From the NCBI RefSeq assembly GCF_026340095.1, contig NZ_JAPEPO010000001.1, positions 5,170,001 through 5,234,000 of the forward strand: a DNA stretch of 64,000 nucleotides, written 5' to 3'. This DNA comes from Streptomyces sp. NBC_01446 (GTDB lineage Bacteria > Actinomycetota > Actinomycetes > Streptomycetales > Streptomycetaceae). The translations under genes and the position numbers were made by a program. Of this stretch, positions 12,749-33,481 are shown piece after piece. The notes under the pieces were generated by a model. It was not told the origin of the DNA, ran no database searches, and saw only the letters and a program-made list of their open reading frames with translations. Every line of letters begins with the position of its first letter. Position 1 is the first letter of the stretch.

Positions 12749-13735
12749 TCAGCGGGTCTGAGCCGTCTGATCCGTCTGATCCGTCTGATGTGTCTGATCC
12801 GTCCGATCGGTCCGATCCATCTGTTCCGGCTCCCGGGTGGCCTCGGCCCACCGCTCCCGCAGTGTCCGTACCGCCTCCGCGATGGCCGGCCTGCGTGACG
12901 CCCCTGTCCGCCACAGCGCGTACAAGTGCCGTACGGGCATGGGGTCGAGCGGCACGGCGACGACGCCGTCCGGCAGCGGACCGCGGCCGAGCCGGGGGAT
13001 CAGTGCGACGCCGAGCCCGGCCGCGACGAGCGCGGTCAGCGTCGGGTTCTCCTCGGCCTGGTGCCTGATGTCGGGCTCGAAGCCCGCCGCCCGCAGCGTC
13101 CGCACCAGCCAGTCGTGGCACACGCGCCCCGGTGGCTGCGACACCCACCGCTCGCCGCCGAGCTCCTCGCGGCGCACCGCGTCACGTCCCGCGAGCGGAT
13201 GGCCGGCCGGCACGAGCAGGTCGCACAGGTCGTCCCCGATGGTGGCCTGCTCCACGCCGGCGGGGGCCGGCAGCGGCGCGATGTCCCAGTCGTGCGCGAC
13301 GGCCAGGTCGACGGCCCCCTTGGCGACCAGATCGACCGACAGATGCGGGTCGACCTCCGTGAGCCGGGCGTCCAGCGCGGGATGCCGTACGGCGAGATCC
13401 GCGAGGACGGACGGCAGCAGACCGCGTGCCGCCGAGGCGAACGCGGCGATCGTCAGCCGCCCGGCCGGGAGCCCGCGCCGCTCCTCCAGATCGGTCTCGG
13501 CGCGCTCGACGATCACCATCAAGTCCTGTGCCGTACGGGCGAGTTCGAGGGCCTCGTCGGTGAGGCGGACGCCCCGCCCGTGCCGTTCGAGGAGTACGGT
13601 CCTCGTCTCCCGCTCCAGTTTGGAGATCTGCTGCGAGACCGCGGAGGGCGTGTAGCCGAGCGCCGCCGCGGCGGCTCCGACCGTGCCGTGCACGGAGACG
13701 GCGTGCAGCGCGCGCAGCCGCTGGAGATCGAGCAT
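12749..13735 (-). CDS. LysR-family transcriptional regulator
   Basis: This 328-residue regulator has a winged helix-turn-helix at residues 1-60 (AAAALGYTPSAVSQQISKLE is the HTH) and a periplasmic-binding-like effector domain over about 90-290. The last 23 residues are a low-complexity Thr-Asp-Gln tail encoded by degenerate repeats of CTGATCCGT. It is divergent from an EamA exporter gene with 103 bp between starts, the classical arrangement in which a LysR protein controls the neighbouring transporter and itself. An 18-bp inverted repeat lies in that interval. The ligand is unknown; control of the exporter and the overlapping EPSP synthase gene is inferred from position. Confidence 0.87.
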   Translation of the reverse strand: MLDLQRLRALHAVSVHGTVGAAAAALGYTPSAVSQQISKLERETRTVLLERHGRGVRLTDEALELARTAQDLMVIVERAETDLEERRGLPAGRLTIAAFASAARGLLPSVLADLAVRHPALDARLTEVDPHLSVDLVAKGAVDLAVAHDWDIAPLPAPAGVEQATIGDDLCDLLVPAGHPLAGRDAVRREELGGERWVSQPPGRVCHDWLVRTLRAAGFEPDIRHQAEENPTLTALVAAGLGVALIPRLGRGPLPDGVVAVPLDPMPVRHLYALWRTGASRRPAIAEAVRTLRERWAEATREPEQMDRTDRTDQTHQTDQTDQTAQTR

Positions 13736-13779: not shown

Positions 13780-13838
13780 TTCAACCATGCAGACATTCGC
13801 GCTGGTGCTACACAGTCGTGCCCGGTGATCCTCGACGC

Positions 13839-14792
13839 ATGGTTCCTACGCTCCCCATGCGCCCGTCCCACATCGCGCTCGCCGTCCTCGTCACCGCCAT
13901 CTGGGGCGTCAACTTCGTCGTCATCGAGGTCGGCCTCGACCACTTCCCGCCGTTGCTCTTCTCGGCCCTGCGCTTCCTCGTCGCGGCACTGCCCGCCGTG
14001 TTCTTCGTGGGGCGGCCCACGGTGGCGTGGAAGTGGGTGGTCGGTGTCGGACTGGCCCTCGGCGTCATGAAGTTCGGCCTCCTCTTCGTCGGCATGAACC
14101 AGGGGATGCCCGCCGGGCTCTCCTCCCTCGTCCTGCAGATCCAGGCCGTGTTCACCGCCCTGTTCGCCTTCGTCGCGCTCGGCGAACGGCCCGGCCGGAT
14201 CCGCCTGGCCGGCATGGTCGTCGCGCTCGCCGGGATCGGGGTCGCCGCCGCCGACGAGGGCGCGAGCGGCCCCCTGCTCGGCTTCACGCTCGTCGTCGTG
14301 GCCGCCGTCGGCTGGGGCGTCTCGAACGTCCTCACCCGTAAGGCGGCGCCGTCCGCCCCGTTCACCTTCATGGTGTGGACGTCGGCCGTCCCCGTCCTGC
14401 CGCTGCTCGCGCTCTCCCTCACCTTCGAGGGCTGGGACCGCGACACACAGGCGCTCGCGTCGCTCGACTGGACCGGCGCGGGCATCATCGCGTTCGTCGC
14501 CTGGGTCACCACGCTCTTCGGCTTCGGCGCCTGGAGCTTCCTGCTGCGCAGCCACCCCGCCTCGTCGGTCGCCCCGTTCACGCTGCTCGTCCCGGTGTTC
14601 GGGATGTCGTCCGCCGTGCTCTTCCTCGGCGAGAGCGTCAGCCCCCTGCGCTGGTGCGCCGCCGCGCTGCTCGTCGGCGGTGTCGCCCTCGCGTCGCTCG
14701 CGCCCCCTCCCCAGAACCGGGCCGTCCAGCGTGTGGACACTCCGGCGCCCGCGCTGCCCGTCGAGGACCATGAAGCGCATGCCAGTCGTTGA
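13839..14792 (+). CDS. EamA/DMT-family metabolite exporter
   Basis: This 317-residue integral membrane protein has two EamA repeats of about five helices each, so about ten membrane segments. Typical features are TAIWGVNFVVI in helix 1 and the repeat-ending segments FVALGERPGRIRLAGMVVA and LFLGESVSPLRWCAAALLVG, both with the G-E pair of the family. Members export amino acids, purines or other small metabolites. The ATG at 13839 is used; ATG 13857 is also possible and neither has a strong ribosome site. The gene is divergent from a LysR regulator, and its last 23 bp overlap the start of the EPSP synthase gene, so the two are probably co-transcribed. The C-terminal 30 residues are a hydrophilic tail. 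Confidence 0.85.
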   Translation: MVPTLPMRPSHIALAVLVTAIWGVNFVVIEVGLDHFPPLLFSALRFLVAALPAVFFVGRPTVAWKWVVGVGLALGVMKFGLLFVGMNQGMPAGLSSLVLQIQAVFTALFAFVALGERPGRIRLAGMVVALAGIGVAAADEGASGPLLGFTLVVVAAVGWGVSNVLTRKAAPSAPFTFMVWTSAVPVLPLLALSLTFEGWDRDTQALASLDWTGAGIIAFVAWVTTLFGFGAWSFLLRSHPASSVAPFTLLVPVFGMSSAVLFLGESVSPLRWCAAALLVGGVALASLAPPPQNRAVQRVDTPAPALPVEDHEAHASR

Positions 14793-16029
14793 GATCCCCG
14801 GTTCCAAGTCCGTGACGGCGAGGGCCCTGTTCCTCGCCGCGGCCGCGCGGGGCACCACCACCCTCGTGCGCCCCCTCAGCTCCGACGACACCGAGGGCTT
14901 CGCCGAAGGACTGCTCCGGCTCGGCTACGGCGTGGAACGCGGCCCGGACGCCTGGCGCATCGAGGGCCGCCCGACGGGCCCCGCCGCCACGGACGCCGAC
15001 GTGTACTGCCGGGACGGCGCGACCACCTCCCGCTTCCTGCCCACGCTCACGGCGGCCGCTGCGCACGGCACGTACCGCTTCGACGCCTCGCCCCAGATGC
15101 GCCGCCGCCCCCTCGCGCCGCTCACCAGGGCCCTGCGCGACCTGGGTGTGGACCTCCGTCACGAGGAGACCGAGGGGCATCATCCGCTCACGGTCACGGC
15201 GCGCGGGGTCCGGGGCGGCGACGTCACCCTCGACGCGGGCCAGTCCTCCCAGTACCTCACCGCGCTCCTGCTGCTCGGCCCGCTGACCAGGACCGGTCTG
15301 CGCATCACGGTCACCGACCTGGTCTCGGCGCCGTACATCGGGATCGCCCTCGCGATGATGCGCAGCTTCGGGGCCGAAGTCCGCCGCGACGGCAGTGTGT
15401 TCACGGTCGAGCCCGGCGGCTACCGCGCCACCACCTACGCGATCGAACCCGACGCCTCGACCGCGAGCTACTTCTTCGCGGCGGCGGCCGTCACCGGCGC
15501 CGAGGTCACCGTCGAAGGGCTCGGGAAGGACGCGCTCCAGGGCGACCTGGGGTTCGTCGACGTACTGCGGCGCATGGGCGCCGGGGTGGCGACGACGGCG
15601 GACCGCACCACGGTCACCGCCCCCGCAGGCCTGTCCGGCATCACCGTCAACATGCGGGACATCTCCGACACGATGCCGACCCTCGCCGCGATCGCGCCGT
15701 ACGCGAGCGGCCCGGTCCGCATCGAGGACGTCCACAACACCCGCGTCAAGGAGTGCGACCGCCTGGACGCCTGCGCGCAGAACCTGCGCGCGCTCGGGGT
15801 GACGGTGGCGACGGGACCCGACTGGATCGAGATCCAGCCGGGCACCCCGGCTCCGGCGGAGATCACCACGTACGGGGATCACCGCATCGCGATGTCCTTC
15901 GCGGTGACGGGCCTGCGGATCCCGGGCGGCGTCACGTTCGACGACCCGGGGTGCGTGCGGAAGACGTTCCCCGACTTCCACGAGGCCTTCGCGAAGGTGT
16001 TCGGACAGCCGTCTACGCCGACTCGTTGA
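14770..16029 (+). CDS. aroA: 3-phosphoshikimate 1-carboxyvinyltransferase (EPSP synthase), atypical class
   Basis: This 419-residue enzyme would transfer enolpyruvyl from PEP to shikimate-3-phosphate. Conserved elements are PGSKS at residues 10-14, SSQYLTALLLL, the second family signature RVKECDRL, DHRIAMSFAV and the terminal RKTFPDF. The first signature is unusual: it reads CRDGATTSRF at 80-89, where E. coli has GNAGTAMRP. Counting from the conserved Arg88 (Arg100 in E. coli), Ala84 replaces Gly96, the position that governs glyphosate binding, and Phe replaces Pro101. ATG 14770 is used; ATG 14779 is an alternative. The gene overlaps the EamA exporter upstream by 23 bp and the convergent gene downstream by 17 bp. 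It may be a second, specialised paralogue rather than the only aroA. Confidence 0.83.
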   Translation: MKRMPVVEIPGSKSVTARALFLAAAARGTTTLVRPLSSDDTEGFAEGLLRLGYGVERGPDAWRIEGRPTGPAATDADVYCRDGATTSRFLPTLTAAAAHGTYRFDASPQMRRRPLAPLTRALRDLGVDLRHEETEGHHPLTVTARGVRGGDVTLDAGQSSQYLTALLLLGPLTRTGLRITVTDLVSAPYIGIALAMMRSFGAEVRRDGSVFTVEPGGYRATTYAIEPDASTASYFFAAAAVTGAEVTVEGLGKDALQGDLGFVDVLRRMGAGVATTADRTTVTAPAGLSGITVNMRDISDTMPTLAAIAPYASGPVRIEDVHNTRVKECDRLDACAQNLRALGVTVATGPDWIEIQPGTPAPAEITTYGDHRIAMSFAVTGLRIPGGVTFDDPGCVRKTFPDFHEAFAKVFGQPSTPTR

Positions 16030-18415: not shown

Positions 18416-19573
18416 GTGACACGCAAGACGGTGCGCATCGCCATGAACGGGGTGACGGGGCGCATGGGCTACCGCCAGCACCTCGTCCGCTCTCTCCTCG
18501 CCCTGCGCGAACAGGGCGGCCTCGACCTGGGCGACGGCACGGTGCTGTGGCCGGAACCGGTGCTCGTCGGCCGCCGCGAGCACGCGCTGCTGGCGCTCGC
18601 CGAGCAGCACGGCCTCGACCCGGCGAACGTCTCCACCGACCTCGACGCCGTCCTCGCCGACGACACGATCGACATCTACTTCGACGCGCAGGTCACGTCC
18701 GCCCGCGAGGAGGCGCTCAAGAAGGCCATCGCCGCCGGAAAGCACCTCTACACGGAGAAGCCCTCGGCGACGAGCCTCGACGGCGCGCTCGAACTGGCCC
18801 GGCTGGCGAAGGCGAAGGGCATCAAGCACGGCGTCGTCCAGGACAAGCTGTTCCTGCCGGGCCTGCTCAAGCTCAAGCGCCTCATCGACGGCGGCTTCTT
18901 CGGGCGGATCCTTTCCGTGCGCGGCGAGTTCGGCTACTGGGTCTTCGAGGGTGACTGGCAGGAGGCGCAGCGGCCGAGCTGGAACTACCGGTCGGAGGAC
19001 GGCGGTGGCATCGTCGTCGACATGTTCCCGCACTGGGAGTACGTGCTCCACGAGCTGTTCGGCCGCGTGACGAGCGTCCAGGCGCTGGCCTCGACGCACA
19101 TCCCGCAGCGCTGGGACGAGGGCGGCAAGCCCTACGACGCGACGGCCGACGACTCGGCGTACGGCATCTTCGAGCTCGACGGCGGCGCGGTCGCGCAGAT
19201 CAACTCCTCCTGGTCGGTGCGGGTCAACCGGGACGAACTCGTCGAGTTCCAGGTGGACGGCACCGAGGGCTCCGCCGTCGCCGGACTGCGCAACTGCCGT
19301 GTCCAGCACCGCGCTTCGACCCCGAAGCCCGTATGGAATCCGGACCTGCCGGCCACGTACTCCTTCCGTGACCAGTGGCAGGAGGTCCCCGACAACCAGG
19401 AGTTCGACAACGGCTTCAAGGCGCAGTGGGAGCTGTTCCTCAAGCACGTGTACGCCGACGCGCCCTACCGCTGGGACCTGTTCGCCGGCGCCCGCGGTGT
19501 CCAGCTCGCCGAGCTCGGCCTGAAGTCGTCGGCCGAGGGCCGCCGCCTGGACGTCCCGGAGATCTCGCTGTGA
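18416..19573 (+). CDS. Gfo/Idh/MocA-family oxidoreductase
   Basis: This 385-residue NAD(P)-dependent dehydrogenase acts on a sugar, inositol or related polyol. The N-terminal Rossmann part starts VRIAMNGVTGRMGYRQHLVR, and the family motif EKP occurs in LYTEKPSATSLDGALELA with the catalytic-type Lys. The C-terminal alpha/beta domain contains GGGIVVDMFPHWEYVLHELFG, matching the usual G-x-D-x-x-x-H active-site helix. GTG 18416 is chosen for its GAAGGGA site 6 bp upstream; the upstream open frame runs through the LacI gene and is not coding. Its stop overlaps the next start as GTGA, so it is translationally coupled to the DUF993 gene. It is the first gene of an operon under the LacI operator. Confidence 0.85.
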   Translation: MTRKTVRIAMNGVTGRMGYRQHLVRSLLALREQGGLDLGDGTVLWPEPVLVGRREHALLALAEQHGLDPANVSTDLDAVLADDTIDIYFDAQVTSAREEALKKAIAAGKHLYTEKPSATSLDGALELARLAKAKGIKHGVVQDKLFLPGLLKLKRLIDGGFFGRILSVRGEFGYWVFEGDWQEAQRPSWNYRSEDGGGIVVDMFPHWEYVLHELFGRVTSVQALASTHIPQRWDEGGKPYDATADDSAYGIFELDGGAVAQINSSWSVRVNRDELVEFQVDGTEGSAVAGLRNCRVQHRASTPKPVWNPDLPATYSFRDQWQEVPDNQEFDNGFKAQWELFLKHVYADAPYRWDLFAGARGVQLAELGLKSSAEGRRLDVPEISL

Positions 19574-20721
19574 CGATCCGACTCCCCGGCCCCGGCGGTT
19601 CGCTGCGCGACTACACCCCGCGCGCCGAGCCGGCCTCCTTCACCACGGGCGCGCCGCTCGTCTCGCGGACCGTCTTCTCGGCGGCGCACGTCGTCGCCGA
19701 CCCGCTCGCCGACGCCGGCCCCGACGTGGCCGCCGTCGACTGGGACGCGACGCTCGCCTTCCGCCGTCATCTGTGGGCGCACGGCCTGGGCGTCGCCGAG
19801 GCCATGGACACCGCCCAGCGCGGCATGGGCCTCGACTGGGCGGGCGCGGCCGAGCTGATCCGGCGCTCGACCGCCGAGGCAAGGTCGGCCGGAGGCGCCA
19901 TCGCGTGCGGGGTGGGCACCGACCAATTGACCGGGACCGCCACGCTCGCCGAGGTCCGCGCGGCCTACGAGGAACAGCTCGCGCTCGTGGAGGGGACGGG
20001 CGCGCAGGCGATCCTCATGGCCTCGCGGGCCCTGGCGGCCGCGGCGTCCGGACCCGAGGACTACCTCGACGTCTACGGGCATCTGCTGCGCCAGGCCGCC
20101 GAGCCCGTCATCCTGCACTGGCTCGGCCCGATGTTCGACCCCGCCCTGGACGGCTACTGGGGTTCGCCGGACCTCGACGCCGCCACCGAGACCTTCCTCG
20201 ACGTCATCGCCGCGCACCCCGACAAGGTCGACGGCATCAAGGTCTCGCTCCTGGACGCCCGGCGCGAGGTCGAGCTGCGCCGCCGCCTCCCGCAGGGCGT
20301 GCGCTGCTACACGGGGGACGACTACAACTACCCCGAGCTGATCGCGGGCGACGAGCAGGGCTTCAGCCACGCGCTCCTCGGCATCTTCGACCCGCTGGGC
20401 CCGCTCGCGGCCGAGGCGGTGCGTGTCCTCGACACGGGGGACACCGCCAAGTTCCGTGAACTGCTCGACCCGACGGTCGAGTTGTCGCGGCACCTCTTCG
20501 AGAAGCCGACCCGCTTCTACAAGACGGGCGTCGTCCTGCTCGCCTGGCTCGCGGGCCGCCAGTCCCACTTCACGATGGTCGGCGGCCTCCAGTCGGCCCG
20601 CCCGCTCCCGCACCTCGCGCGCGCCTACGAACTCGCCGACGGCCTCGGCCTGTTCCCGGACCCCGCCCTTGCCGAGACCCGGATGAAGTCCCTGCTCAGT
20701 CTGTACGGAGTCGACCAGTGA
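19570..20721 (+). CDS. DUF993 protein, dihydrodipicolinate synthase-like aldolase
   Basis: This 383-residue TIM-barrel protein resembles the DHDPS/N-acetylneuraminate lyase superfamily, in the branch known as DUF993. The segment DKVDGIKVSLLDARRE places a lysine where class I aldolases form a Schiff base, and GVRCYTGDDYNYPELIAGDEQGFSHALLG resembles the family stretch that follows it. No member with a proven reaction is known to me. The GTG at 19570 overlaps the preceding stop by 4 bases and the next gene starts in the same manner, so all three proteins are probably made together. The context suggests cleavage of a keto-sugar acid produced by the dehydrogenase; this is inference. Confidence 0.8.
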   Translation: MTIRLPGPGGSLRDYTPRAEPASFTTGAPLVSRTVFSAAHVVADPLADAGPDVAAVDWDATLAFRRHLWAHGLGVAEAMDTAQRGMGLDWAGAAELIRRSTAEARSAGGAIACGVGTDQLTGTATLAEVRAAYEEQLALVEGTGAQAILMASRALAAAASGPEDYLDVYGHLLRQAAEPVILHWLGPMFDPALDGYWGSPDLDAATETFLDVIAAHPDKVDGIKVSLLDARREVELRRRLPQGVRCYTGDDYNYPELIAGDEQGFSHALLGIFDPLGPLAAEAVRVLDTGDTAKFRELLDPTVELSRHLFEKPTRFYKTGVVLLAWLAGRQSHFTMVGGLQSARPLPHLARAYELADGLGLFPDPALAETRMKSLLSLYGVDQ

Positions 20722-21551
20722 GCCACGCCCTCGACCGCTTCTCCATCAACCAGATGACCGTCAAGCAGCTCGGCCTCGAAGAACTGGTCGCGGTCTGCGC
20801 CGAGTTGGAGGTGCCGGGCGTCGGCCTGTGGCGCGAGCCCGTGCAGACGTACGGGGTCGAGGCCGCGGCGAAGCTCGTGCGGGAGGCCGGGCTCGCCGTC
20901 ACCACGCTGTGCCGGGGCGGCTTCCTCACCGCGATCGACGTGCACGCGCGCGTGCGGGCCCTCGACGACAACCGCGCGGCCGTCGACGAGGCGGCCGCCC
21001 TCGGCACGGACACCCTCGTCCTGGTCTCCGGCGGCCTCCCCGAAGGCAGCAAGGACCTGCACGGCGCGCGGGAGCGGATCGCCGACGCGCTCGCGGAGCT
21101 CGGCCCGTACGCCGCCGAGCGTGGGGTCCGGCTCGCCATCGAGCCGCTGCACCCGATGTACGCCTCCGACCGCTGCGTCGTGTCGACGCTGGCGCAGGCG
21201 CTCGACCTGGCCGAGCGCTTCCCCGCCGAGCAGGTCGGCGTGTGCGTGGACACGTACCACGTCTGGTGGGACGACCGAGCGCCCGCGCAGATCGCGCGTG
21301 CCGGGGCGGGTGGGCGGCTGCACGCCTTCCAACTGGCCGACTGGACCACGCCGCTGCCCGAGGGCGTCCTCAACGGGCGGGGGCAGATCGGCGACGGCGC
21401 GATCGACATGCGCGCGTGGCGTGGCCTCGTCGAGGACGCCGGATACGCGGGGCCCATCGAGGTGGAACTGTTCAACGACGGGCTGTGGGCACGCGACGGG
21501 CGCGAGGTCCTCGCGGAGACGGCGGACCGCTTCGTGCGGCACGCCGGCTGA
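20718..21551 (+). CDS. Sugar phosphate isomerase/epimerase-type TIM barrel
   Basis: This 277-residue xylose-isomerase-like TIM barrel is the third gene of the DUF993 operon. Expected metal-ligand positions are visible: the Glu of LAIEPLHPMYA, the Asp in VGVCVDTYHVWWD with its His, the His of LHAFQLADW and the Glu of GPIEVELFND. Its GTG start overlaps the DUF993 stop by 4 bases (GTGA). It starts SHALDRFSINQMTVKQ. It would isomerise or epimerise the sugar handled by this pathway, possibly before the aldolase-like step. No transporter or kinase gene accompanies the operon, so uptake must be supplied elsewhere. Confidence 0.83.
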   Translation: MSHALDRFSINQMTVKQLGLEELVAVCAELEVPGVGLWREPVQTYGVEAAAKLVREAGLAVTTLCRGGFLTAIDVHARVRALDDNRAAVDEAAALGTDTLVLVSGGLPEGSKDLHGARERIADALAELGPYAAERGVRLAIEPLHPMYASDRCVVSTLAQALDLAERFPAEQVGVCVDTYHVWWDDRAPAQIARAGAGGRLHAFQLADWTTPLPEGVLNGRGQIGDGAIDMRAWRGLVEDAGYAGPIEVELFNDGLWARDGREVLAETADRFVRHAG

Positions 21552-33025: not shown

Positions 33026-33082
33026 GGAAAGCGCCCCGCTGCCAGTCCCCCCACGGGCCGGCAGTCGGGGCGCTTTCCTTTT
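33026..33082 (+). terminator. Strong intrinsic terminator of gltA
   Basis: GGAAAGCGCCCCG at 33026-33038 pairs perfectly with CGGGGCGCTTTCC at 33066-33078. An inner CTGCC/GGCAG stem continues the hairpin with a one-base bulge, and a TTTT tract follows. It is the best intrinsic terminator in the window. Confidence 0.9.
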
Positions 33083-33481
33083 CCCGGTGCGGATTCCCCC
33101 CACGGGATCCGTCCGGGCGTCTACGGTGCGGTCTGCCGGGACGCGTACACGGGAGGGCCGCTCAAGCTCTCCGTGGCACGTGTCCCGGCCAACGCGGTCG
33201 GGTCCGTCCCCCAAGACGGCCCCGGTCAACACAGAAACGCCCCCCAAGACGTTTCTGCATCGCCTCCTTAGACTCGCGAGAACCTCAAATGGTTACGTTC
33301 AGATCACTGTGATCTGCGTCTCCTGCATATGTCCTGATCGTGCGCAAGAGACCCCATATGTAGATCGAGGTTCGGACGTGAGAATGCTGCGGTTGTGATG
33401 TGAGGCGAATGTGAAGACCCCTTGATGATGGGCCAGACCACGGGCGATGGGAAGTCCTTCCAGAAAAAGGGCCGCTCACCT
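33083..33481. other. 399-bp gap between convergent genes, partly AT-rich
   Basis: No convincing protein gene is present. The stretch 33240-33430 is clearly more AT-rich than its surroundings and contains the perfect palindrome CAGATCACTGTGATCTG at 33300-33316 and two CATATG sites. As the flanking genes converge here, neither needs a promoter in it, so an unannotated RNA or small gene is possible. Confidence 0.4.

Follow-up and report, generated by a model that had tools for sequence, protein, structure and literature searches.

EPSP synthases (EPSPSs) are sorted into four classes in a scheme described in PMC9145961 and PMC9040730 in connection with use of the EPSPSClass server, and PMC9145961 takes Streptomyces davawensis as its class IV reference. 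Class IV is described in the literature as a distinct clade, nearest to class I. A review of assessments by EFSA places DGT-28 in Class IV, and PMC8983318 cites by title a paper by Griffin et al. 2021 (doi 10.1021/acs.jafc.1c00439) on an enzyme that is glyphosate-tolerant and belongs to "a distinct class". The PDB entry with the title "DGT-28 EPSPS" (7m0o) is identified in PMC8983318 as the S. sviceus EPSPS in an open, unliganded form. Two sets of substitutions are informative about the residue at E. coli position 96. The G96A change in the E. coli enzyme is reported to increase the Km for PEP by a factor of 23 and the Ki for glyphosate by a factor of over 1000 (PMC3411725), while the A100G change in the class II enzyme CP4 is reported to restore glyphosate sensitivity (PMC8983318). 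Class IV itself, a solved structure and crop use are all already in print, and the enzyme discussed here is a further ortholog.

The window, by which we mean the whole 64,000-nt stretch of Streptomyces sp. NBC_01446 DNA that was analysed, carries an open reading frame of 419 codons with no internal stop [Table 1]. The initial annotation had given this frame, its coordinates and the motif CRDGATTSRF correctly; the motif stands in the context YCRDGATTSRF, and the translation reads Ala at residue 84. The protein scores 394 bits against the NCBIfam aroA model TIGR01356 (cut-off 287) and 345 bits against Pfam PF00275 (cut-off 22.8). An alternative start, the ATG at 14779 (codon 4), gives an N-terminus that more closely resembles that of a relative (MTLVDIPGSK, locus L169). 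Judged from this likeness, the true start may be codon 4, in which case Ala84 would become residue 81. The numbering used here probably agrees with the residue numbers in 7m0o, as suggested by the aligned ranges together with the gap-free alignment.

Table 1. Positions of the genes and codons discussed (window coordinates unless a locus is named).
Feature	Position	Strand	Basis or remark
Divergent LysR-type regulator	12749..13735	-	Pfam PF03466/PF00126
EamA-family exporter ORF	13818..14792	+	Pfam PF00892; overlaps the EPSPS 5′ end, which (14770) lies inside this ORF
Class IV EPSP synthase gene (3-phosphoshikimate 1-carboxyvinyltransferase)	14770..16029	+	Translation, profiles, 7m0o identity, AF2 model
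CRDGATTSRF codons, residues 80-89	15007..15036	+	Sequence; alignment without indel at the motif
Ala84 codon	15019-15021	+	E. coli Gly96 position; Gly83 just before
Ordinary EPSPS	L001:1453-2769 (own genome C3, about 2872300)		Best solved match 2o0b, M. tuberculosis

The best match among solved structures is 7m0o (699 bits), with which the window protein shares 322 of 401 aligned residues (80%) and the entire RDGATT core. In a tree that covers classes I, II and IV, both fall in a single clade (SH-aLRT 99), with the E. coli, Arabidopsis and CP4 enzymes outside. By this clade with DGT-28, the window protein is assigned to class IV. To this extent, the suggestion in the initial annotation of a divergent class, possibly tolerant of PEP-analogue inhibitors, has held: the class exists and is published, and tolerance is likely for the window enzyme by homology to DGT-28 and by the Ala that the two have in common. 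The likeness to class II drawn in the same place stands with respect to the Ala, which is also present in CP4 (Ala100), but membership in class II is ruled out by an identity to CP4 of 26% and by its distant branch.

The predicted fold leads to the same family. An AlphaFold (AF2) model built from 13 sequences has a mean pLDDT of 91.8, and the solved structures nearest to it are EPSPSs, with 3nvs giving Z 53.7 and an rmsd of 1.5 over 406 residues and 1g6s giving Z 52.4; liganded class I EPSPSs lie at Z 52-54, and MurA entries score below the EPSPSs (Z at most 39.7). Against 7m0o, the model gives Z 50.9 and an rmsd of 4.4 over 399 residues, a high value that fits the open, unliganded state of that structure.

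In a MAFFT alignment, Ala84 falls on E. coli Gly96 and Phe89 on Pro101. Over the motif region (E. coli 85-106) both proteins have 22 residues; the one extra residue relative to E. coli is placed between Arg100 and Arg124. The window sequence D-G-A-T-T thus stands against N-A-G-T-A in E. coli, such that Gly and Ala have swapped places. Since Ala is present in 104/104 non-redundant rows at least 65% identical to the window protein (window included), it is not a sequencing slip. The placement of Ala84 on Gly96 in the initial annotation is borne out by the register without an indel. As for the replacement of Pro101 by Phe, which had been noted alongside it, the alignment itself is confirmed; Phe101 as a second class mark is ruled out, because Phe occupies this position in 156/157 non-redundant actinobacterial rows, the ordinary paralogue included. 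In the AlphaFold model a helix begins at residue 84, and the corresponding E. coli helix is reported to span residues 97-105 (PMC3411725); the comparison is coarse and fits the plain Ala84/Gly96 register.

We tabulated 25 positions that we take to represent the S3P/PEP site. The window protein keeps the E. coli residue at 19 of them (K22, S23, R27, T97, R100, R124, S169, S170, Q171, S197, Y200, D313, N336, K340, E341, R344, H385, R386 and K411) and differs at 94, 95, 96, 98, 99 and 101. Tyr200, Asp313, Asn336 and Lys340 are present in all 104 class IV rows, and the sole exception at the other tabulated catalytic positions in these rows is Asn at 411 in locus L136. With this E. coli-like catalytic set and the predicted fold, the enzyme would be expected to convert shikimate-3-phosphate and PEP to 5-enolpyruvylshikimate-3-phosphate. 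Ala in place of Gly96 would introduce a methyl group into the PEP/glyphosate pocket; by comparison with G96A, CP4 and DGT-28, PEP would still bind and glyphosate would be hampered. Given that the G96A change raised the Km for PEP, Ala alone need not make a good enzyme, and class IV would need compensation elsewhere, perhaps at Gly95 or Thr98. The Gly at position 95, beside the Ala, may leave room for a small loop shift. With 80% identity to DGT-28 and the same Ala, the window enzyme is likely, by analogy, to tolerate glyphosate.

PF00275 finds four matches in the genome. A second aroA, a possibility already raised at the outset, is among them: L001 lies above the aroA cut-off (375 bits) and is of the ordinary type, with Gly at position 96, Glu at E. 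coli position 313 and His at both 336 and 340; the gene that follows it is, we presume, rsgA-like. In its catalytic residues the window copy is therefore nearer to the E. coli enzyme than L001 is. The same residues mark the ordinary type at large, with Glu at Asp313 in 26/26 non-redundant rows and His at Lys340 in 25/26. As to the remaining two matches, scanned over the matched stretch, L003 passes the murA model TIGR01072, and L004 lies below the murA cut-off and passes just the UDP-GlcNAc carboxyvinyltransferase subfamily model NF006873.

Every one of the 151 genomes of the genus (the window's own included) has an EPSPS match, and 54 of them have one at least 76% identical to the window protein, in 53 as a single piece and in G078 as two overlapping pieces. 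A partial piece in G017 (79% identical) was counted apart from the 54, and a full class IV copy was not found in the 97 non-carriers, G017 among them. Each of the 54 carriers has at least one further EPSPS match, which, from the identity bands, would be of the ordinary type, and among these carriers none was seen with class IV as its only EPSPS, a case that would have argued strongly for its function. Of 393 genomes from the class, 17 match at 76% or more, every one of them within this genus; a genome from another family matches at 60%. Members with Ala96 were also found in three genomes from another family of the order (L086, L094 and L098), and the best 80 of 341 loci belong to Streptomyces or "[Kitasatospora] papulosa", on which ground the genus of the 151 genomes is taken to be Streptomyces. 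Across these 151 genomes, class IV is an accessory copy.

The dN/dS values for the EPSPS gene against nine relatives (0.24-0.32) indicate purifying selection and therefore a working gene. Because the host also retains the usual actinobacterial EPSPS, the class IV copy can be read as a back-up isozyme, through which chorismate synthesis would continue if the main enzyme were limiting or inhibited; it is from their co-occurrence that this role is taken as the most likely one. Collectively, these data leave us with little doubt that the window gene encodes an accessory class IV EPSPS orthologous to DGT-28, with a predicted activity on S3P and PEP, an Ala that would hamper glyphosate, and a probable function as a back-up isozyme. 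That the gene is instead a relic, i.e., a dispensable duplicate on its way to loss, is hardly credible: its lack in full form in 97 genomes, the rearranged G078 copy and the G017 fragment would suit such a reading, but the dN/dS values and the intact Tyr200, Asp313, Asn336 and Lys340 throughout the class IV rows, with Asn411 in L136 as the single departure, speak against it. The G078 copy (G078:C141:514103-515630, in L171) consists of two pieces that each cover query residues 117-258, and looks as after an internal duplication.

The surroundings of the gene were also considered. The EamA ORF and the EPSPS gene are presumed to be co-transcribed, and the divergent LysR-type regulator presumably acts on the EamA gene. 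Nothing promoter-like turned up in a promoter/terminator scan around the EPSPS gene; the two terminator-like sites that it gave lie within or ahead of the EamA ORF. The convergent genes downstream encode a xylose-isomerase-like TIM-barrel protein and a LacI protein. Past the divergent LacI gene, GFO/IDH/MocA, DUF993 and xylose-isomerase-like (TIM-barrel) genes stand in a row (18500-21551, +), which by their domains would form a sugar-type catabolic operon. Elsewhere in the window, positions 33057-33119 (-) match the Rfam Streptomyces small RNA Scr2736 (71.2 bits). The eight neighbouring proteins that were scanned show no sign of a special EPSPS pathway or a biosynthetic cluster.

We compared the neighbours in 80 loci of relatives, the best of 341 by whole-protein similarity. 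An EamA relative is present in 8/80 and a LysR match in 11/80 (one locus, L016, is without its upstream stretch), and a role in handling an exported product or inhibitor, as the EamA and LysR neighbours might suggest, was dropped on these counts. The commonest neighbours instead define at least two unrelated settings. One has genes that we take to be those for an acyl-CoA dehydrogenase (44/80), an aldehyde dehydrogenase (35), dxr (36), rip (40) and an ispG-like protein (24), and the other has a GH3 gene, in 27/80 loci by ORF cluster and 31/80 by tblastn. These ORF counts are lower bounds, in that the EPSPS gene itself was called in 74/80 loci and contig ends shorten some of them.

The more serious alternative is that the class IV enzyme is a special form of back-up, a self-protection or defence isozyme against PEP-analogue or phosphonate natural products from the host itself or from its neighbours. 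An inhibitor-proof enzyme would be expected to have Ala96, which is fixed in the clade (104/104), and one genome (G014) has a PEP-mutase homologue some 7 kb away from its class IV gene. In this locus (L169, G014:C285:5500-24000) the homologue scores 297 bits, against a curated cut-off of 320, and is accompanied by CDP-alcohol transferase, asparagine-synthase-like and nucleotidyltransferase genes. Over the 151 genomes, however, class IV is present in 7/14 of those with a PEP mutase and in 47/137 of the others (Fisher p 0.26), where the PEP-mutase set comprises TIGR02320 matches above 230 bits, three genomes passing the curated cut-off. On this result a general link to phosphonate synthesis was dropped, and one narrow literature search found nothing connecting class IV EPSPS with phosphonates. 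The two or more unrelated chromosomal settings also argue against a defence function, which we regard as unlikely.

A second alternative is that the protein is a paralogue that has moved off shikimate-3-phosphate and acts on another acceptor, as an enolpyruvyl transferase of secondary metabolism. Side-branch enolpyruvyl transferases exist, and an accessory copy in 54 of 151 genomes next to a universal EPSPS would suit this reading. Against it stand the conserved S3P-site residues among the tabulated positions, the lack of a biosynthetic cluster in the eight neighbouring proteins scanned, and the many neighbours in relatives that we take to be housekeeping-like genes. Moreover, DGT-28, 80% identical, is described as having a class I mode of action. 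Another acceptor is thus very improbable, and an accessory class IV EPSPS serving as a back-up remains the preferred reading.

As discussed above, class IV carries Gly95-Ala96, in all 104 rows. The 53 other actinobacterial rows all have Ala95-Gly96 (14 at 45-65% identity to the window protein, 13 below 45% and 26 of the ordinary type). From the 104 class IV rows the tree took 24, some picked and others drawn at random, together with the window protein and 7m0o; it also holds each of the 27 other Gly rows and 12 of the 26 ordinary ones, L001 having been added by name. L171, shorter than 380 residues, was left out of the alignment. The tree comes from a short search, and long branches meet in it, which leaves the deep branching uncertain. 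All sampled Ala rows group together (SH-aLRT 99), and Gly96 is found in the closest relatives of this clade, L141 and the rows at 50-55% identity. The tree requires two changes to Ala, the second of them in CP4, which sits alone on a very long branch. The pattern fits a single gain of Ala96 in class IV, most simply one independent of the class II Ala. A bolder and unlikely proposal is that class IV arose from one actinobacterial swap of Ala95-Gly96 to Gly95-Ala96, on a Gly96 background, and was retained as a permanent second EPSPS against natural inhibitors in soil, PEP analogues that act on the ordinary enzyme; if true, resistance to glyphosate would go back to an ancient response to some naturally occurring antibiotic.

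The origin of the Ala can be tested through the sister groups with Gly96, which are 50-60% identical to the window protein. Of these, L149-L158 (50-55% identical) comprise ten loci in eight genomes of the window's genus, L141 is 60% identical, and both have aroA-like active sites; these are possibly further accessory EPSPSs that lack a class name. A third accessory EPSPS group (L159-L168, 38-42% identical) has the motifs AGTPLRF or AGTPIRL, and L159 passes the aroA cut-off. As a glyphosate-tolerance enzyme, the window protein adds little, and its value is that of one more ortholog. The question it frames is why about one-third of the sampled Streptomyces (54/151) retain a second EPSPS whose catalytic residues differ from those in the ordinary one.

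Set beside the known systems, the window enzyme is closest to DGT-28, with which it shares the Gly95-Ala96 motif, the clade and 24 of the 25 tabulated positions; the two differ at 79 of 401 residues, and of the tabulated ones just at E. coli 99, where the window protein has Ser87 and 7m0o has Ala. The class II enzyme CP4 has Ala at the Gly96 position as well but is otherwise unlike it, with 26% identity, the motif GNAATGCRL and a very long branch outside the class IV clade. The class I enzymes of E. coli and Arabidopsis (39-40% identical) agree with it in the catalytic residues, except for Ser at 336 in Arabidopsis, and differ from it in having Gly96 and Pro101 where the window has Ala and Phe. 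The ordinary actinobacterial EPSPS (L001; M. tuberculosis 2o0b) shares with it the family and Phe101, whereas L001, at 36% identity, has Gly96 and carries Glu, His and His for Asp313, Asn336 and Lys340.
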